Notes under the pieces: model-generated
Told to the model about the DNA's origin: nothing
The model's database searches: none
What the model saw: only the letters and a program-made list of their open reading frames with translations
Shown here: positions 45,388 through 53,459 of the stretch, one piece after another
How the letters are laid out: every line of letters begins with the position of its first letter
How positions within the stretch are numbered: position 1 is the first letter of the stretch
Made by a program: the position numbers and the translations under genes
Assembly: GCF_020523925.1 (NCBI RefSeq)
Contig: NZ_JAJAPW010000004.1
Coordinates: 124,001-188,000, forward strand
Direction of reading: 5' to 3'
Source of the DNA: Neotamlana laminarinivorans
Lineage (GTDB): Bacteria; Bacteroidota; Bacteroidia; Flavobacteriales; Flavobacteriaceae
DNA: 64,000 nucleotides

Positions 45388-46770
45388 TTACAGCTTAATA
45401 AGTTTTTTTGTAGATAACAACGCATTATCAGAATAAAAATTAGCTAAATAAACTCCGGCGTTTAATTTGCTAATGTTTACACTTTCGGTTTCAAAATTTT
45501 TAAGCGATAATGTTTTTATTCGCTTTCCATCTAAACTTATAATTTCAATTTTTAGGTTAGAATTATTTCCGTTTTCAAATGAAAAATTAATGGTATTTTT
45601 AGTAGGATTTGGATACATTTTAATACTCAAATTGTTTTCGCTACTAATAGTTTCAATACCTAAAGTAGAGTAATTAATACTCCAAGTTACGGTGTGTATA
45701 TTTATGGTTTCGTAATTGTCAATTCTAATAAGGCTTGTGTTGTCTGTAATGGCAGTTACAAGTGTGTTTTCACCTTCAATTAAATCGGTTTCGTTAATAG
45801 AAATTTCATCTAAATTGCTTGCAAAAATATCGTTGTTTAAGGTCCAAGTACTCTCCAATGTGTTTGGGTCTGGCTTAATTAAAGATAGGCTAAAATCAAT
45901 TGGAAAGTCTGTAGCTTCAATTGTATTGCTATTAGGTAAATAACTATCAATTGGAGAAACCAATTCATGAATTTTTGCTACCATGCCTTCTTTACAAACC
46001 GAGCAAAATCCTTTGTCTATTTTCTCCATAATGCAGTTTTGGTGCGGTTTATACCAATCTGCACAATTTCCCGTATCGCAAGTATATTGATAAATGCCAA
46101 CGCTATTTGTGTTAATCCAGTTTTTCCATTTCACAGCGGCTGGGTTGGTTTCTTTTGTCATATTAATAGCTTCTGCTGCTAATTCATCTCCAGGATAATA
46201 TTCATCTTTTAAATCGAAAAGCGAATGCCCGATTTCGTGCATAATTACATTATTACCCCAATAGCCATTATAAGCCATAGGGAAACTACCACCACTACCA
46301 CCATAATCGGGAGAATTTACCAAAATAAGTCCCACATCATAATTTGGTGTATTATCGGCTAGAACACTAAGTATTTTTGCTTCGGTATTGTTGGCGCTAT
46401 ACCCATCGACTTCGTAATAAAGTAAATATGGTTGACCAAAAGCTTCATGCGTAGCGTTAAAATAAGTGTCTACGTAAGTGTTTGTAGAAGGCCTGTCGGC
46501 ACCACTTTCGTTCGATGGTACTTTTACTGCGTAAACATTAAAATAATTAGTGTAATTTGAAAAAGGAGCTTCTGCAAACATGGTTGAAGTGAATTTTTCC
46601 GCATCAGAAATAAAATTTGCTAATTCACTTTCTTGATAGCCTTCACTTAAAATAACTAGATTAATACGATTATTGTCATCACTAGAATATTTAATAGTTT
46701 CCACATCAAAAACCTGAGCGTTTAAAAAGCTTGATAGCATTAAGACGATAAAAAATTTAACCTTTTTCAT
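45388..46770 (-). CDS. M64 family metallopeptidase with T9SS type-A sorting domain
   Basis: A 460-residue secreted metzincin-like peptidase (IgA-peptidase M64 family). Signal peptide is MKKVKFFIVLMLSSFLNAQ. The zinc motif is HEIGHSLFDLKDEY (His178, Glu179, His182). Paired Cys follow (CDTGNCADW, CSVCKEG). The C-terminus is a type-A T9SS sorting domain (IKMYPNPTKNTINF to NAGVYLANFYSD, then KKLIKL). The PorU/PorV machine encoded at 7.5-12.7 kb would export and process it. Its ATG overlaps the upstream lipoprotein stop by 4 nt (ATGA type), so the two are coupled. Confidence 0.92.
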   Translation of the reverse strand: MKKVKFFIVLMLSSFLNAQVFDVETIKYSSDDNNRINLVILSEGYQESELANFISDAEKFTSTMFAEAPFSNYTNYFNVYAVKVPSNESGADRPSTNTYVDTYFNATHEAFGQPYLLYYEVDGYSANNTEAKILSVLADNTPNYDVGLILVNSPDYGGSGGSFPMAYNGYWGNNVIMHEIGHSLFDLKDEYYPGDELAAEAINMTKETNPAAVKWKNWINTNSVGIYQYTCDTGNCADWYKPHQNCIMEKIDKGFCSVCKEGMVAKIHELVSPIDSYLPNSNTIEATDFPIDFSLSLIKPDPNTLESTWTLNNDIFASNLDEISINETDLIEGENTLVTAITDNTSLIRIDNYETINIHTVTWSINYSTLGIETISSENNLSIKMYPNPTKNTINFSFENGNNSNLKIEIISLDGKRIKTLSLKNFETESVNISKLNAGVYLANFYSDNALLSTKKLIKL

Positions 46771-47270
46771 TTTTGATCCAGTTTTGTAGTTATAAGCTCT
46801 GTTGTGCTTTTTTTGTTATCGGTTATTACAAGTAATCTTAAATAATGCGCTTCGGGATGCAATTGTAATTTAAGTGAAACTGAAGCTTTTTTTAAAATGT
46901 GTTTTTGTCGTGAAAACTCAAGCGATTCGTTTGACGTTTCGGTAAACTTAATTAACGGATTTTTTATATAGTCAACGTGAATTGCTTTATTATTTTTATC
47001 TAATTGTACACATTTAATATCATCAATATTTGGTTCGCTAATAAATTTATGGCTTTGGGTTTTTAACAAGCCATCTGTGATTTTTTTATTTATTAGTTGT
47101 ATTTTTTTTGTGTTTTCTTCCTGTGCTTCTAAAGTGTAATTAATAAATAGCAGTTTAGGATTTTCGGTAATAGGAATGCTATTATCGCTAATTTGTTTTT
47201 GCCCACCACAAGCTAGAAGGCATAACACACCAAGCAGGAAAATTAACTTAAAAAAGAATAACCGTTTCAT
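46767..47270 (-). CDS. Uncharacterised lipoprotein
   Basis: A 167-residue lipoprotein with signal and lipobox KLIFLLGVLCLLACGGQ (Cys near 21). The rest is beta-rich and charged with no family I recognise. It ends 4 nt into the M64 peptidase gene and begins 45 nt after the alpha-2-macroglobulin gene, all on one strand. It may tether, inhibit or fold the peptidase or assist the alpha-2-macroglobulin (inference from position). Confidence 0.7.
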   Translation of the reverse strand: MKRLFFFKLIFLLGVLCLLACGGQKQISDNSIPITENPKLLFINYTLEAQEENTKKIQLINKKITDGLLKTQSHKFISEPNIDDIKCVQLDKNNKAIHVDYIKNPLIKFTETSNESLEFSRQKHILKKASVSLKLQLHPEAHYLRLLVITDNKKSTTELITTKLDQK

Positions 47271-47315: not shown

Positions 47316-50300
47316 TTAGTTTACATGTAATCTTACGCCTTCGCTATGGCTACTAAATTCGGGAGCGTACATGCTTTGTATGGTGGTAATTCCATTACTC
47401 ATATTACCGGCATTGTTAACACGTAAATCGTATTCAAAAACATAAATGCCTTTTGGTAAATAGTCGAAAAAGAAGTTTGTGCTCGCATCTTTTGTGCTTT
47501 CGTAATAGCCCAAACCGTCTTGCCATTTGTATTGACTAATTACATTTACGGGTTCTAAACCTGCGGCACGCATGTCTTTCATGTGTATAAATTCCATAGC
47601 ACGATCGCTGCGTAACTCAATACGAACCCGAACTAAATCGCCAACTTCAAGTTTGGTGTTTTCAGTAATTTCGGTGATTTCTTCTCCAAAATCTGTGTTT
47701 GTTTTTTTGAAAAGCTTCTTTTTAAGGCTTAATGGTGTTTCTGCTGATGAAATTTTATCTAAATCTTCAAAATACTGCCAATACAATCCGCCCCAAGCAA
47801 TACCGTCGCCTTTTTTGGTTAGTGTAACGTTGGCCATTTCGGGTTTAATTTCAGAAGGATTCCATGAGGTTTTAAAGTAACCCGTTCCGGCTTCAACTTT
47901 TACGTTCTCTAGCTTTTTAGGTTCAATTTTTTTATTACCAACCAAAACATCAACGGCTTCAGTAACACTTAACCAATCACTACCTTGAAGCAATAATGCA
48001 TACACCGCTTCGGTAGTTGCTTTGGTAGTTTTCCAACGGTTGGTTTGCTTATTTTTAAGTAACCAGATTTTTAGGTTGTCTATGGTTTCTAAATTATTCG
48101 CTTCGGTCTGAATGACAAGGCCTGCTTCAGAAAAGGCTTCAATTAAAAGCGTTTGTGTTTCAATGGGTGCTTGATACCAAAACCATGAGTTGGTGTTTGC
48201 TTTCCAGTACATGCCCAATTCTTCATTAGTTATGCTGGTTTCCTTTAACGATTTTAAAATTTTTGATGCTGTATTTTTATCATCTTTTCTATAAGAAACG
48301 AGCGCCATTAATCCTTTTGCGTATAAGCTGCTACTTATCCAATACTTTTGAATTTGAGTTTGGTAATAGGCCATAATGTTTTCAACTTCTTTTGAAGGTT
48401 TAATTTCAGGGAAGAAGCTTCGCATGTATAAATATTGAAGTTGTGTGTAACTTAAGTGATCTTTGCTTAAATCGACTTTAGAATTGTATTTTGTTAGGTC
48501 GTTGTATTCTTTAACAAACTGCGCATCTAAATATTTGATGGCTTTTTGAATCATTTTATTTCGAGGTTCCTCGGAGCCTGTCCTGAGCGCAGTCGAAGGG
48601 CTCAGGGAGACATTAAGTTGCTTAAGATGCCCAAAACCAGAAATAATATGTTGGGTAATGTAGCGGTTTTCGCGTCCGCCTTTAAACCAACTCCAAGCAC
48701 CAGAACTCATTTGGTTTGATTTTAGTTTGTTGATTGCCGATTGCAATTCATTATTCATTTTGTTTAAATTGAATAATAAGGCGATGCGTTTTTTCTGTTC
48801 GGTTTCACTTTGTGCATCTCGAAGCCAAGGTGTTTCTTGTATTAAAATAGATTTTAATTTTTCGTTTTTTTCAAGGTTAGAAACAAGAGCATCTGCATTG
48901 GCCCATTGGTTAAAAACCTCCTGAATTCGCGGATTAGAATTTGCAATGTGGCTTGCCAAAGCATTCGCATAATACCTGCTAAATGTTTGCTCGTTACATT
49001 CGTAAGGATATTCCATTAAATACGGTAATGCTTGCACTGCGTACCATGCCGGATTAGAAGTGATTTCTAAAGTTAGCTTATGATGTTTTAATGTAGCAGA
49101 CGAATTGGTCTTTAACTTATCGAGTGTAAAGGTTCGGGTTTCGTTACTTTTAATCCACATAGGAAGCGTTTCTGTAACTAACATACGATTACTTAAAACC
49201 GGTAGAGCGTTTTGCTCGCCATCGCTAAAGGTGTCGGATTTTGCGACAATTTTATATTGAACCGCATCGATAGTGTCTGGAATACTAAGTTGCCATGACA
49301 CTTGCGTGTTGGCTTGAGGGTTAACCACGAAGGTTTCGACTGCGCTCAACCTGACAAGTTCTTTTGTAACATCTTCTCCAGAAATAGCATCCGTAAGGAC
49401 TAAAAATGCGTTTCCTGATAATTGGTTGTTTGTTAGGTTTGCAATTTTTGTACTAATGGTAATGCTATCGCCATGGCGTAAAAAGCGTGGTGCGTTAGGT
49501 GTTACCATAAGTTCCTTTTGTGTAACTGTAGTAAGTGTTTTTGTTGCGCTTTCTAGGTTTTTGGTGTGTGCTAAAAGTTGCAGTTTCCATTGGGTTAAAG
49601 CTTCAGGTGTGGTGAAACTAAAACTTATATTTCCAGCTTCGTCGGTTTTTAGCTCAGGAAAAAAGAAAGCGGTTTCTTGTAAATTTTTTCGAATTTGTAT
49701 GTTATCGAAATTTGGGGTTTCTGTAGCTAATTCTCCGGAAGTTTCTTCTACAATCTCTTTTTTCAAATCTGCATTTTCTGCCATAGGTGCTGCGGAAACT
49801 TGAGTAACTGCTCCTGTTAACGATTTTCTTTTTTGAGTACCGTAACCAACTACAACGACTTCATCTAAAAGGGCTTCGTCTTCAACAATCTGAACACCAG
49901 CTACACGGCCACCAAGCGCACTCGAAATATTATTCTTACCTCTTATGATTAAATTTTCATTACCAAACCTAAACCCAAACCAATTTAATTTATCATAATG
50001 TTGTTGAGGATAGCTTTTTCGTGGGTTATAGTTATAAACTTGAAAATTTGTATTACCAAAACTGTTATAAGCTTTATTGTTACTTCGTGAATAATATGTT
50101 GGGTTATTTACAGGATTGAAATACCAATTATGAGGTTTAAACTGGTCGAGTGAAGCGTCATACATGCTTGCTAAAAATTCGGCGCTTACTTTTTCGCCTT
50201 TCGGGCCTTTAATGTTAAAACTCCAAGTTTCGTTGGTTCCTGGTTGTAATTTATCGCGAAACGTATTGGTTTCAATGTTTAAATCGGTTTTAGGATAAGG

Positions 50301-53300
50301 CACAGCAATATAGGTTGTGCCAGATTTATAACTGTTATAGGCGGCAAAACTATAATGCACTACAAAACCGCCAATGTCGTTGGTTTCAACGGGAACTGAA
50401 ATGCTTTTTTTATTGTTGTTAAGCTGAATTATTTCGGTTTTTATAATTTTTTTATCTTTTTCAATACGAATAGTAACCGATACATCTTCGGAAGCAGAAG
50501 CTACAGTAACAACTGCAGTTTCACCAATATTGTATTTTGATTTGTTGGTTGTGATACTAAACAATTGCTTATCGGCTAAAGTTTTATCGGTTTCACTAAA
50601 TAAGGTGGTTTTAACTTCGTCTTTAACTAATTGTCCGAATTTGTCTTTACTCTCTAAAGTGATGAGGTATTGGCCAGATTCCCATTTTTTAAGTTTTCCT
50701 AAATCTATTTGTTTAGCGTTTTTGGTATTAAAATCACTACTAAAAACAAGCGTGCCTTTTTCCCAATTAGCCGAATTGTCTTCGTTTTTATAAGCTTCAT
50801 TAGGGAATAAGTTTTTGTATGCCTCTTTAGAGAATTCTTGATAATCTGGCGTTTCCCAAGGGCGAGGCCTTACAACGGTTTCAGGAGCTTTAAGTTTGTA
50901 TATTTTAATATTACCTTGAGCCGGAACAAATTCACCATTTAGATTTTTTGTATCAATATAAATACTATGGTTTTTCTTGTTTTTATCAATTAAAGCATCT
51001 ACGGTTAATTGAGCGGTTAAGGCATGATAACCTACGTTAACAACGGTTGTTGCACTTCTGGTTTCTCCGTTTAAATCGGTTACATTGGCAGTGATTTCGT
51101 AGTTAAAAATGGGTAAACTGTTTTTATCTACACTTTGGTCTGGAAGCGCTTTAAAAGTAATTTCGAAGTTTCCAGAAGCATCTGTTACGGTTTCGCCGTG
51201 TGTAATTTCTTGAGCTTCGCTGCTAAAATATGGTCTGTGCCAAAAATACCAACGCGGATATTGTACTTTGCGGTGTACACGGTAAACCACTTTAGCATCG
51301 GTAATATTGCTGCCGGCATAAGCTTGCGCATTTCCTGTTATGGTAACCGAATCGTTAATTCTATAAGTGTCTGTAACGGGTATAAATTCGGTTTTAAATT
51401 TAGGACGTTTGTACTCTTCTACAGAAAAATAGTGTTTTGTGAGAAAGTCTTTATTGTCGCCGTCAAATTCTATATAATATTCGCCATTTAAACCGTTATT
51501 TGGTAAAATGAATTCACCGGAAACCGACCCAAATTCGTTGGTTTTAAACTCTAATTCGCTAACTTCCTCATCGTTTACGTTATAAAGTGTCGCGTAAACA
51601 GGTTCGTTATCAACAACTTCAGATTTGTTGTTTTTAGTTTTAATGGCAATGGCCTTAAAAAACACGGTTTGCCCAGGGCGATAAATACTTCTATCGGTAA
51701 AAATAAAAGCTTTGTATTGTGTTTTTTCTCGAGGTTCTTGGTATTTAGTATAGACATTATAATTACCAAAATAAGCCGTTTCGTTAGCGTTGCTTACTTT
51801 TAAAGTTATGTTTCTGTACCAATCGTTGGTTTTTTCAATACGTATTTCTCCGTAGTTGTTTGTGGTGTATTCTTCACGATTAATGGCGCGTGAATTTCTT
51901 TCGTAATAACTCATTTCAACTTTAGCGTTGCTAACAGGAGCGCCGTTAGTTCTGTTAATTACTTGAAATATTTTTTGCGTATTCGTTTCGGTTTCAACCA
52001 AAGCCAAATCGGTAACTTGCACTGTTGTGTAAGCAAAATTTTCTGTGTTGTTTTTTATTTCGGCATAAATTAAATAATCGCCGCCAACTAATTTTGGTAT
52101 TAAAATTTCGGTGCTATGTTGTTGGTAATCGTTTTCGTTTTTTAAAACACTTTCCCAAGATTGACTCTCGTTTAAGGCTTTTATAAAATCTAGTTTTTCT
52201 TCTTTACGGTAAATGTTTTCAAACTTCTCAAGCTCTTTTCTTTTTAGCTTAAATAGTTTAAAATTTAAAGCTTCAATATTTTTATAATCAACTAAAATTT
52301 TAGCATGTTTTTGTATAGGTAAAAAGCGTTCTGCTGTTAATTTTAATGAGTTAGTTTTAATGGTTTGTTTTAAAAATTGGCATTTATAGGCTGCATGACT
52401 TTCTGGGTAATTTGAAATAACACTATTACAAATTTCTAGAGCTTCTTTTGCTTTCCAACGACAGTCTTTCTGGGATTGTGTATTGTATTTTGTGCTTTGT
52501 AGTTGGTAAATATTGGCAATTTCAAAATTGTATAAACCAGAAACATCATGGTTTTTAACTTTGTTTTTTCCTGTTTCAAGTGCTTTTAAAAAGAAGGCTT
52601 CTTTATTACTAAATGTGGCATACTTGTTTACAAATTTTAAGCGTTCAATATCGTTATACGCCTTAGCGTAAAGAGTATTGTCTTTTAAATGAAATTGAAT
52701 TAAATCTTGATAAATTTTTAGAGCATTTAATTGTAACGAAGTAGAATCTTTTGATGTTATTTTTAATTCCGAAAAGGTTTTGGAATCGGCTAAAAAATCT
52801 GGATTATCAATTTCGAATTTGTAAGAAGGTCTGGTAATATGCGTTTCACTGGTTTTATAAAATTCTAGAGCTTCATGGTTTAAAAAATCGAATAAGGTAG
52901 GGCGGTATTTTTTAGAGTCCTTTTGAAGAATTAAAATATCATTAAACTGGCCTAAATCTTCTTGCTGAAGCATTAATCCGCTCGCTAAGGCATTTTGGTA
53001 GTGTACATGAATTTCGTTAAAAAGTGTTTGTAAATCCCAAGTTCTAAAATCGGTTTTATCTACCTTTTCACTTGTTTTCGTGCGGTTGTAAAACAGCCAA
53101 CGGTTTTGCTGAAAATATTGCCAATACATTTTGGCAAGCATACTTTCTAATAGATTTTTAGTAGGGAACTGGCTTGTTTCAATTTGCGTTTTAAAATCGT
53201 TTATTATGTTAAGTTGGGCATCTTCTTCTAAAATAAGGGCAAATTTGCCTTTAAAAACCATTGTTTTTATAAGTTGAGGCGTGTTATTGTCTTGTTTAGC

Positions 53301-53459
53301 TTTTATTACAATGTCTTCTACCACTTTTAAAGCCGATTTAGGTAGGCCATCTAACTCATACTGTTTAACTTTATTCCATAGATTTTGGTAATTTTCGGTT
53401 TGTGCAGTAGTAAAATTTGCAAAAAGTATAATCATTAAAAAAGTAAAAGTCTGTTTCAT
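47316..53459 (-). CDS. Alpha-2-macroglobulin family protein with SusC/TonB-plug-like insert
   Basis: A 2047-residue exported protein with signal peptide MKQTFTFLMIILFANFTTAQ. Order: a helical N-terminal region (20-370); MG domains including an MG2-like segment (IFTDRSIYRPGQTVFFKAI, near 590); MG domains to ~1150; a bait-region position (about 1165-1225) containing IIRGKNNISSALGGRVAGVQ and DEVVVVGYGTQKRKSLTG, which read like SusC/RagA plug and N-terminal signatures; the A2M domain (WKLQLLAHTK, ~1280); then the thioester helical domain with ECNEQTF (Cys1488, Gln1491). Bacterial A2Ms trap proteases in the periplasm or at the surface. Two palindromic DNA repeats lie in frame (residues ~1617-1632 and ~1367-1376). 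It heads a unit with a lipoprotein and M64 peptidase. Confidence 0.9.
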   Translation of the reverse strand: MKQTFTFLMIILFANFTTAQTENYQNLWNKVKQYELDGLPKSALKVVEDIVIKAKQDNNTPQLIKTMVFKGKFALILEEDAQLNIINDFKTQIETSQFPTKNLLESMLAKMYWQYFQQNRWLFYNRTKTSEKVDKTDFRTWDLQTLFNEIHVHYQNALASGLMLQQEDLGQFNDILILQKDSKKYRPTLFDFLNHEALEFYKTSETHITRPSYKFEIDNPDFLADSKTFSELKITSKDSTSLQLNALKIYQDLIQFHLKDNTLYAKAYNDIERLKFVNKYATFSNKEAFFLKALETGKNKVKNHDVSGLYNFEIANIYQLQSTKYNTQSQKDCRWKAKEALEICNSVISNYPESHAAYKCQFLKQTIKTNSLKLTAERFLPIQKHAKILVDYKNIEALNFKLFKLKRKELEKFENIYRKEEKLDFIKALNESQSWESVLKNENDYQQHSTEILIPKLVGGDYLIYAEIKNNTENFAYTTVQVTDLALVETETNTQKIFQVINRTNGAPVSNAKVEMSYYERNSRAINREEYTTNNYGEIRIEKTNDWYRNITLKVSNANETAYFGNYNVYTKYQEPREKTQYKAFIFTDRSIYRPGQTVFFKAIAIKTKNNKSEVVDNEPVYATLYNVNDEEVSELEFKTNEFGSVSGEFILPNNGLNGEYYIEFDGDNKDFLTKHYFSVEEYKRPKFKTEFIPVTDTYRINDSVTITGNAQAYAGSNITDAKVVYRVHRKVQYPRWYFWHRPYFSSEAQEITHGETVTDASGNFEITFKALPDQSVDKNSLPIFNYEITANVTDLNGETRSATTVVNVGYHALTAQLTVDALIDKNKKNHSIYIDTKNLNGEFVPAQGNIKIYKLKAPETVVRPRPWETPDYQEFSKEAYKNLFPNEAYKNEDNSANWEKGTLVFSSDFNTKNAKQIDLGKLKKWESGQYLITLESKDKFGQLVKDEVKTTLFSETDKTLADKQLFSITTNKSKYNIGETAVVTVASASEDVSVTIRIEKDKKIIKTEIIQLNNNKKSISVPVETNDIGGFVVHYSFAAYNSYKSGTTYIAVPYPKTDLNIETNTFRDKLQPGTNETWSFNIKGPKGEKVSAEFLASMYDASLDQFKPHNWYFNPVNNPTYYSRSNNKAYNSFGNTNFQVYNYNPRKSYPQQHYDKLNWFGFRFGNENLIIRGKNNISSALGGRVAGVQIVEDEALLDEVVVVGYGTQKRKSLTGAVTQVSAAPMAENADLKKEIVEETSGELATETPNFDNIQIRKNLQETAFFFPELKTDEAGNISFSFTTPEALTQWKLQLLAHTKNLESATKTLTTVTQKELMVTPNAPRFLRHGDSITISTKIANLTNNQLSGNAFLVLTDAISGEDVTKELVRLSAVETFVVNPQANTQVSWQLSIPDTIDAVQYKIVAKSDTFSDGEQNALPVLSNRMLVTETLPMWIKSNETRTFTLDKLKTNSSATLKHHKLTLEITSNPAWYAVQALPYLMEYPYECNEQTFSRYYANALASHIANSNPRIQEVFNQWANADALVSNLEKNEKLKSILIQETPWLRDAQSETEQKKRIALLFNLNKMNNELQSAINKLKSNQMSSGAWSWFKGGRENRYITQHIISGFGHLKQLNVSLSPSTALRTGSEEPRNKMIQKAIKYLDAQFVKEYNDLTKYNSKVDLSKDHLSYTQLQYLYMRSFFPEIKPSKEVENIMAYYQTQIQKYWISSSLYAKGLMALVSYRKDDKNTASKILKSLKETSITNEELGMYWKANTNSWFWYQAPIETQTLLIEAFSEAGLVIQTEANNLETIDNLKIWLLKNKQTNRWKTTKATTEAVYALLLQGSDWLSVTEAVDVLVGNKKIEPKKLENVKVEAGTGYFKTSWNPSEIKPEMANVTLTKKGDGIAWGGLYWQYFEDLDKISSAETPLSLKKKLFKKTNTDFGEEITEITENTKLEVGDLVRVRIELRSDRAMEFIHMKDMRAAGLEPVNVISQYKWQDGLGYYESTKDASTNFFFDYLPKGIYVFEYDLRVNNAGNMSNGITTIQSMYAPEFSSHSEGVRLHVN
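48561..48610 (-). repeat. Palindromic dispersed repeat inside the A2M reading frame, copy A
   Basis: Two hairpins in tandem: CGAGG-TT-CCTCG (48562-48573) and CCTGAGC / GCTCAGG (48582-48588 with 48600-48606) around GCAGTCGAA. It encodes about 16 in-frame residues (SLSPSTALRTGSEEPR) of unusual composition. The core matches the intergenic copy at 27244. Confidence 0.75.
49331..49357 (-). repeat. Palindromic dispersed repeat inside the A2M reading frame, copy B
   Basis: AGGTT-(TCGACTGCGCTC)-AACCT followed by GACAAG. The same core as copy A in the opposite orientation, encoding RLSAVETF in frame. Confidence 0.65.

Follow-up and report, generated by a model that had tools for sequence, protein, structure and literature searches.

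The A2M gene and its bait loop

The window, by which is meant the whole stretch of 64,000 nucleotides analysed, encodes a type I (thioester-type) bacterial alpha-2-macroglobulin (A2M) of 2047 amino acids (47316..53459; ORF call and Pfam). This gene and all features of the window described below lie on the minus strand. The N-terminus carries what was judged by eye to be a signal peptide without a lipobox, and is followed by MG2 (PF01835; residues 583-680; 51420..51713; E 1.9e-17), A2M_BRD (PF07703; residues 968-1079; 50223..50558; E 1.2e-6), A2M (PF00207; residues 1263-1348; 49416..49673; E 8.4e-18) and bMG10 (PF17973; residues 1910-2034; 47358..47732; E 2.6e-32) domains. The thioester motif CNEQ (residues 1488-1491; 48987..48998) was read on the translation; its C, E and Q are invariant across the thirteen rows of alignment A1, and among the family loci listed the CxEQ pattern was found in 72/77, being absent from L022, L059, L062, L070 and L075. 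The closest named relative returned was Tamlana sedimentorum, with 93% identity in the best segment of 399 post-bait residues. A second A2M of another type (L244; 1842 amino acids, with HGCVEQ), unmatched by the post-bait profile, is encoded in the same genome (C37:306200-312300).

Between the PF07703 and PF00207 domains lies the bait loop (residues 1134-1248; 49716..50060), which is predicted to be disordered (AlphaFold2 pLDDT <50; model residues 275-389) and to be flanked by a strand on either side, in a model of residues 860-1440 of moderate quality (alignment of 49 sequences; mean pLDDT 64.8). Mapping the bait by sequence onto the A2Ms in the PDB gave four weak, meaningless matches only, and Foldseek was therefore used. 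The best matches of the bait-region model were C3/A2M-superfamily structures (complement-type, human, E. coli and Salmonella A2M), with TM-scores relative to the query of ~0.24-0.41 indicating similarity at the superfamily level only. The initial annotation had located a receptor-like segment in the bait region, and both the domain order and the structure prediction, in which the segment falls inside the disordered loop, agree with that location.

Directly downstream of the A2M are encoded a small protein of 167 amino acids with a lipoprotein-like N-terminus and no Pfam match (46767-47270) and an M64 peptidase bearing Por_Secre_tail, a T9SS domain (45388-46770; Pfam), the genes for these two overlapping by 4 bases. 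The peptidase is possibly a secreted protease restrained by its neighbours. Among 80 named loci, some of which have little downstream room, the M64 peptidase is found near the A2M in fifteen and the small protein in thirteen. The pair was dropped as a candidate operon partner of the A2M on the basis of the M64 count, for which reason it is also left out of the best explanation.

SusC-type blocks in the window and its relatives

The bait loop was scanned with position weight matrices (PWM) for sequence blocks of eight SusC-type receptors of the same genome (one KDA row being out of register through a deletion), with thresholds corresponding to 2e-5 per position on non-bait A2M sequence. A SusC-type TonB box with its GYG stretch, LDEVVVVGYGTQKR (residues 1198-1211; 49827..49868), scores 43 bits against a threshold of 6.7. 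It is preceded by the plug-start (GRVAG) block SALGGRVAGVQI (49887..49922; 18 bits against 8.3), in which GRVAGVQI represents residues 1184-1191 (49887-49910), and followed by SLTGAVTQV (49797..49823; 21 bits against 11.3), the SusC block after the TonB box, with SLTGAV at residues 1213-1218. The stretch from the box through the LTGAV block reads LDEVVVVGYGTQKRKSLTGAV (residues 1198-1218), within which LDEVVV is the SusC TonB box. Further upstream, IIRG (residues 1171-1174; 49938..49949) falls below its PWM threshold and weakly resembles either the plug IRG block or a carboxypeptidase-D-like VKGT stretch; it aligns with the carboxypeptidase-D-like NVIIKGTSN of the congener L277, and may be a remnant of such a domain. 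Since the GRVAG, box and LTGAV blocks lie far over their thresholds and IIRG lies under, the placement of GRVAG before the box, the reverse of the SusC order, is solid, whereas the leading IRG, also part of the altered order originally described, is doubtful.

The isolated segment matches the NCBIfam SusC/RagA profile TIGR04056 (E 6e-13), with the best stretch at profile positions 69-108 (box and LTGAV), so that the SusC-type signature first noticed by eye is borne out and extends beyond a few residues. The whole 2047-residue protein gave no match against NCBIfam. Pfam Plug was matched neither by the isolated segment nor by the whole protein, and the Pfam matches of the latter include no CarbopepD_reg domain and no beta-barrel family. 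As judged from these searches, the protein falls outside the SusC/RagA receptors, having neither barrel nor plug, and carries a TonB box. In the available text on the SusC protein Bt1763 (PMC7782687), the TonB box is VDEVVV, its deletion or replacement causes a levan growth defect resembling that of a SusD deletion, and an N-terminal extension (PF13715) lies upstream of the box.

The relatives compared comprise 291 loci, of which 289 have the post-bait profile and 271 the pre-bait landmark; removal of identical last-90-residue segments left 255 distinct bait segments, 152 in the family set and 103 from other families, with families assigned by the search that fetched each locus and a few named records placed only at class or order level. 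The A2M query was matched at E 0.001 in 129/149 family genomes, some of these matches being to receptor genes only. At least one SusC block is present in 115/152 family segments and in 21/103 of those from other families; shuffled segments gave a mean of 12.9/255. The blocks found in the family set are the box (86 segments), GRVAG (66), IRG (39), KDA (21), VDG (18) and GAV (17), while the box and GRVAG were found in thirteen and eight segments, respectively, of the other families. A relaxed TonB-box pattern occurs in 58/152 family and 21/103 other bait segments, against means of 1.4 and 0.3 for shuffles and 1.5 and 0.5 for non-bait windows. A one-off chimera or assembly fault is ruled out, with blocks in 136/255 distinct segments. 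The box is likewise ruled out as a trait of all A2M types, being absent from 14/14 A2Ms of the phylum with the other type of thioester (YGCxEQ/FGCxEQ), where the stretch corresponding to the bait yielded one GRV and one GAV match.

Of the family segments with both blocks, 24 have GRVAG before the box and 22 have it after, as in SusC; in the other families GRVAG comes first in 4/4. The short baits of L233, L241, L225 and L226, from distant families, show by eye a GRVAG-like block, an RG or similar pair and an EVVV-type box, which is the permuted order of the window. In L204 and L045 the order is mixed (GRVAG-box-IRG-VDG-KDA), with GRVAG preceding the box and the rest of the plug in receptor order, a possible intermediate in the shuffling of the blocks.

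The loops of the relatives take several forms. The full form, of 234-259 residues, combines a carboxypeptidase-D-like domain, the TonB box and a plug (e.g. L035, L036, L044, L050, L055 and L056), while further forms have the carboxypeptidase-D-like domain with the box, or the plug with no carboxypeptidase-D-like domain before it (L040, L042 and L045), and short forms of ~68-117 residues carry single blocks or none. The Winogradskyella sister loci L160 and L167 are near-identical after the bait (branch sum 0.053) and have wholly unlike baits, the one in TonB-box form and the other in plug form. Pfam, run on ten of the thirteen named long forms, identified CarbopepD_reg_2 in seven and Plug in four, and in all ten the insert is flanked by A2M_BRD and A2M; in L130, plug motifs are visible by eye and Pfam Plug is unmatched. 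The full-module loop matches the N-terminal architecture of SusC, and the relatives thus show the origin of the bait. In a model of the full-module protein L202, the pLDDT is ~90 for the carboxypeptidase-D-like domain and ~60-80 for the latter half of the plug, and the box region is disordered. The pTM of this model is low (0.39) and the 50 best Foldseek rows listed are all A2M-superfamily chains, so that the plug fold is assigned from Pfam and not from structure.

Receptor types other than SusC appear in two distant lineages. The bait of L332 (family f47) contains RGARSESTYSYVDGIRV ... GVPANYGDVSGGV and is matched by an ORF of 1262 amino acids from the same genome (E 3e-12; 58% across query residues 6-53). 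L232 belongs to f33, a family outside the class, and its bait has two matches among the ORFs encoded alongside it in that genome, with E-values of 8e-7 and 2e-5, besides weaker ones. CarboxypepD_reg and Plug were identified by Pfam in all three comparison ORFs scanned: L341, which comes from a congener of G387 and stands in for the homologous receptor of that genome, L343, from genome G283, and L344, from the genome of L232 itself. L339, whose longest ORF is on the wrong strand, was left out. The L341, L343 and L344 receptors were judged by eye not to be SusC in sequence. In both distant lineages tested, the bait thus resembles receptors encoded in the same genome.

Retention and turnover of the loop

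Every TonB-dependent receptor has a TonB box, as do the TonB-dependent colicins; the box forms a strand that pairs with the C-terminal domain of TonB, its activity depending more on local structure than on side chains (PMC11658791, in the text available). It is tentatively proposed, at somewhat less than an even chance, that the bait presents a TonB box able to dock TonB. The thioester A2M would be a periplasmic protease trap whose bait derives from the periplasmic module at the N-terminus of TonB-dependent receptors, a module that in the window gene is cut down and rearranged to the GRVAG block, the TonB box and the LTGAV block. By binding TonB, the trap would be held adjacent to the receptors with its loop still cleavable, and once the bait was cut the trap would fire and come free of TonB.

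Docking predicts that the core of the box is kept while the rest of the loop drifts. At an equal false-positive rate of 5e-5 per position, the core LDEVVV, the following stretch and both adjacent were found in 53, 26 and 22 of the family short forms (n=113), in 32, 17 and 15 of the family long forms (n=39) and in nineteen, two and one of the segments from other families (n=103), with the qualification that chance drift could yield a short, strand-like core more readily than the richer following stretch and that the thresholds equalise this only partly. By these counts the TonB-box core is commoner than the sequence after it, despite the fast turnover of the loop. A similar pattern is seen in the genus of the window (its own and three further genomes), where L275 and L276 have the short permuted form and L277 the carboxypeptidase-D-like domain with the box. 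LDEVVVVGYGTQKR is retained at 14/14 residues in L125/L276 and L275 and at 13/14 in L277, where LDEVVVV..GY is unaltered though the flanking dS is 1.4-1.9. Comparison with the two distinct relatives of short form gave a dN of 0.05 and a dS of 0.28-0.40 for the box region (19 codons), and a dN of 0.41-0.42 and a dS of 0.70-0.75 for the stretch after the box; in the box region of L277, 4/19 residues are changed (dN 0.21; dS not computable). These estimates are based on few codons in three relatives, L125 and L276 having the same sequence. With the core kept and the rest drifting, docking is the favoured explanation. A docking mimic that ties the trap to the receptors had been suggested in the initial annotation; this idea survives in changed form, in that the TonB-box core is the part most often kept, but the known partner of the box is TonB and not the receptors. 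The complete receptor module of some relatives, the very fast turnover of the loop and the other receptor types in distant lineages go beyond what that annotation described. Against docking counts that the box is not universal, with no match in 66/152 family segments and 90/103 others (37/152 and 82/103 are without any block), and that some long forms (e.g. L040, L042 and L167) keep the plug with no box over threshold, which docking alone would not predict.

The loop could alternatively be a lure that mimics receptors, the other role suggested in the initial annotation. The flexible linker between TonB box and plug, the exposed inner face of abundant outer-membrane receptors, would be attacked by proteases reaching the periplasm, and the bait would copy that site and capture the protease. 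The placement of the blocks in the bait and the copying of receptor types of the own genome in the two distant lineages tested are consistent with this, and the very fast change of the loop fits protease pressure: in five sister pairs, the dN of the bait is 0.16-0.76 versus 0.01-0.08 across 150 downstream codons. A lure should, however, retain the residues around the cleavage site generally rather than mainly the TonB-binding core, and no protease targeting TonB boxes or plugs is named in the available portions of PMC7782687, PMC4498604, PMC5764988 and PMC11658791. This explanation is considered unlikely.

Passive reuse, in which pieces of receptor genes enter an unconstrained bait by recombination and decay, with a role as no more than a flexible, exported, in-frame loop, is judged to be equally unlikely. 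Receptors are exported proteins whose genes are present in these genomes as a large family of repeats, with 48 Plug matches over the cut-off in the genome of the window, and the blocks are shuffled and truncated among relatives. Gain and loss, which are not distinguishable on the tree used (FastTree; ~400 post-bait residues; 255 rows), are rapid: the carboxypeptidase-D-like state, which is undercounted as the landmark pattern clipped some segments too short (L039, L060 and L277), requires 26 changes for 33 carriers versus 31.5 with shuffled labels, and the bait state differs in 38/80 sister pairs. Phylogenetic signal nonetheless remains, with 51 changes for the box versus 79 when shuffled and 17 versus 24.2 for the permuted order. 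Divergence is also local, the DNA identity between the window and L125 being 97.3% and 97.8% in the flanks, 85% in the pre-bait region and 81% in the bait; the diverged stretch between near-identical flanks, together with a pre-bait dS of 1.0, suggests recombination there, and none of the loci compared offers a nearer donor for that stretch than the congeners do. A recent conversion event with a receptor gene as donor was rejected at the DNA level, the best non-self match being 40 bases at 83% for the window, in its own genome, and 52 bases at 77% for L167, and this lack of a recent DNA-level donor also argues against passive reuse. So do the excess of the core over the following stretch, the unaltered core in L277 and the other families that reach the TonB-box core without the remaining SusC blocks. 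Regulation by a folded bait, where a carboxypeptidase-D-like and/or plug insert serves as a shield or spacer for the bait, with the box a mere linker, is in keeping with the folded insert and disordered box region predicted for L202, but is very unlikely given that 113/152 family segments, that of the window included, show no folded insert and 53 of those retain the box core.

Taken more broadly, the docking explanation would have the thioester A2M traps of Bacteroidota wired to the TonB motor through the box in the bait, with protease attack both firing and uncoupling them, and with lineages having repeatedly rebuilt the link from their own receptor types; in this generality it is a doubtful though possible account. 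If true, a soluble defence protein of the cell itself that bears a TonB box would join periplasmic protease traps and TonB-driven transport, which are thought of as separate, and would provide a sequence-based clue to what the A2Ms of Bacteroidota guard, and where. The close species, with the full module, the box only or nothing, form a natural series for studying bait evolution.

Comparison with known systems

No open-access paper on TonB boxes or plugs in A2Ms was found among the literature matches listed, as judged on title and start of abstract and with subscription papers mostly outside the search. E. coli ECAM and Salmonella Sa-A2M share with the window protein the MG domains, a bait before the A2M domain, the CxEQ thioester and export, and A2M structures of these species (5a42, 4rtd and 4u48) are among the Foldseek matches. 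ECAM is a lipoprotein, whereas the lipobox pattern was found in 0/123 family-set A2Ms with a readable N-terminus. As described in the accessible part of PMC4498604, the bait of the E. coli A2M is largely disordered and lies inside one MG domain, MG8, and in cleaved ECAM 20 bait residues (R923-L942) are without density, as compared with a predicted loop of 115 residues with a TonB box here. The type II A2M MagD of P. aeruginosa has in common with the window protein a periplasmic location, a bait region and the absence of a lipobox, and associates with the inner membrane and partner proteins; unlike the window protein it is without a thioester, and no TonB box is mentioned for it in the text available (PMC5764988).

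Among the receptors, SusC/RagA proteins (Bt1763) resemble the window protein in the succession of the TonB box LDEVVV, GYGTQKR and LTGAV, and resemble some of its relatives in the combination of an N-terminal extension (PF13715) with a plug. The window protein differs from them in being an A2M with no barrel family matched, in its permuted and partial blocks and in having no Plug or CarbopepD_reg domain. TonB-dependent colicins are likewise non-receptor proteins with a TonB box (PMC11658791, in the portion available); however, the colicins use the box for entry into the cell, whereas the window protein would be a periplasmic trap of the cell's own.
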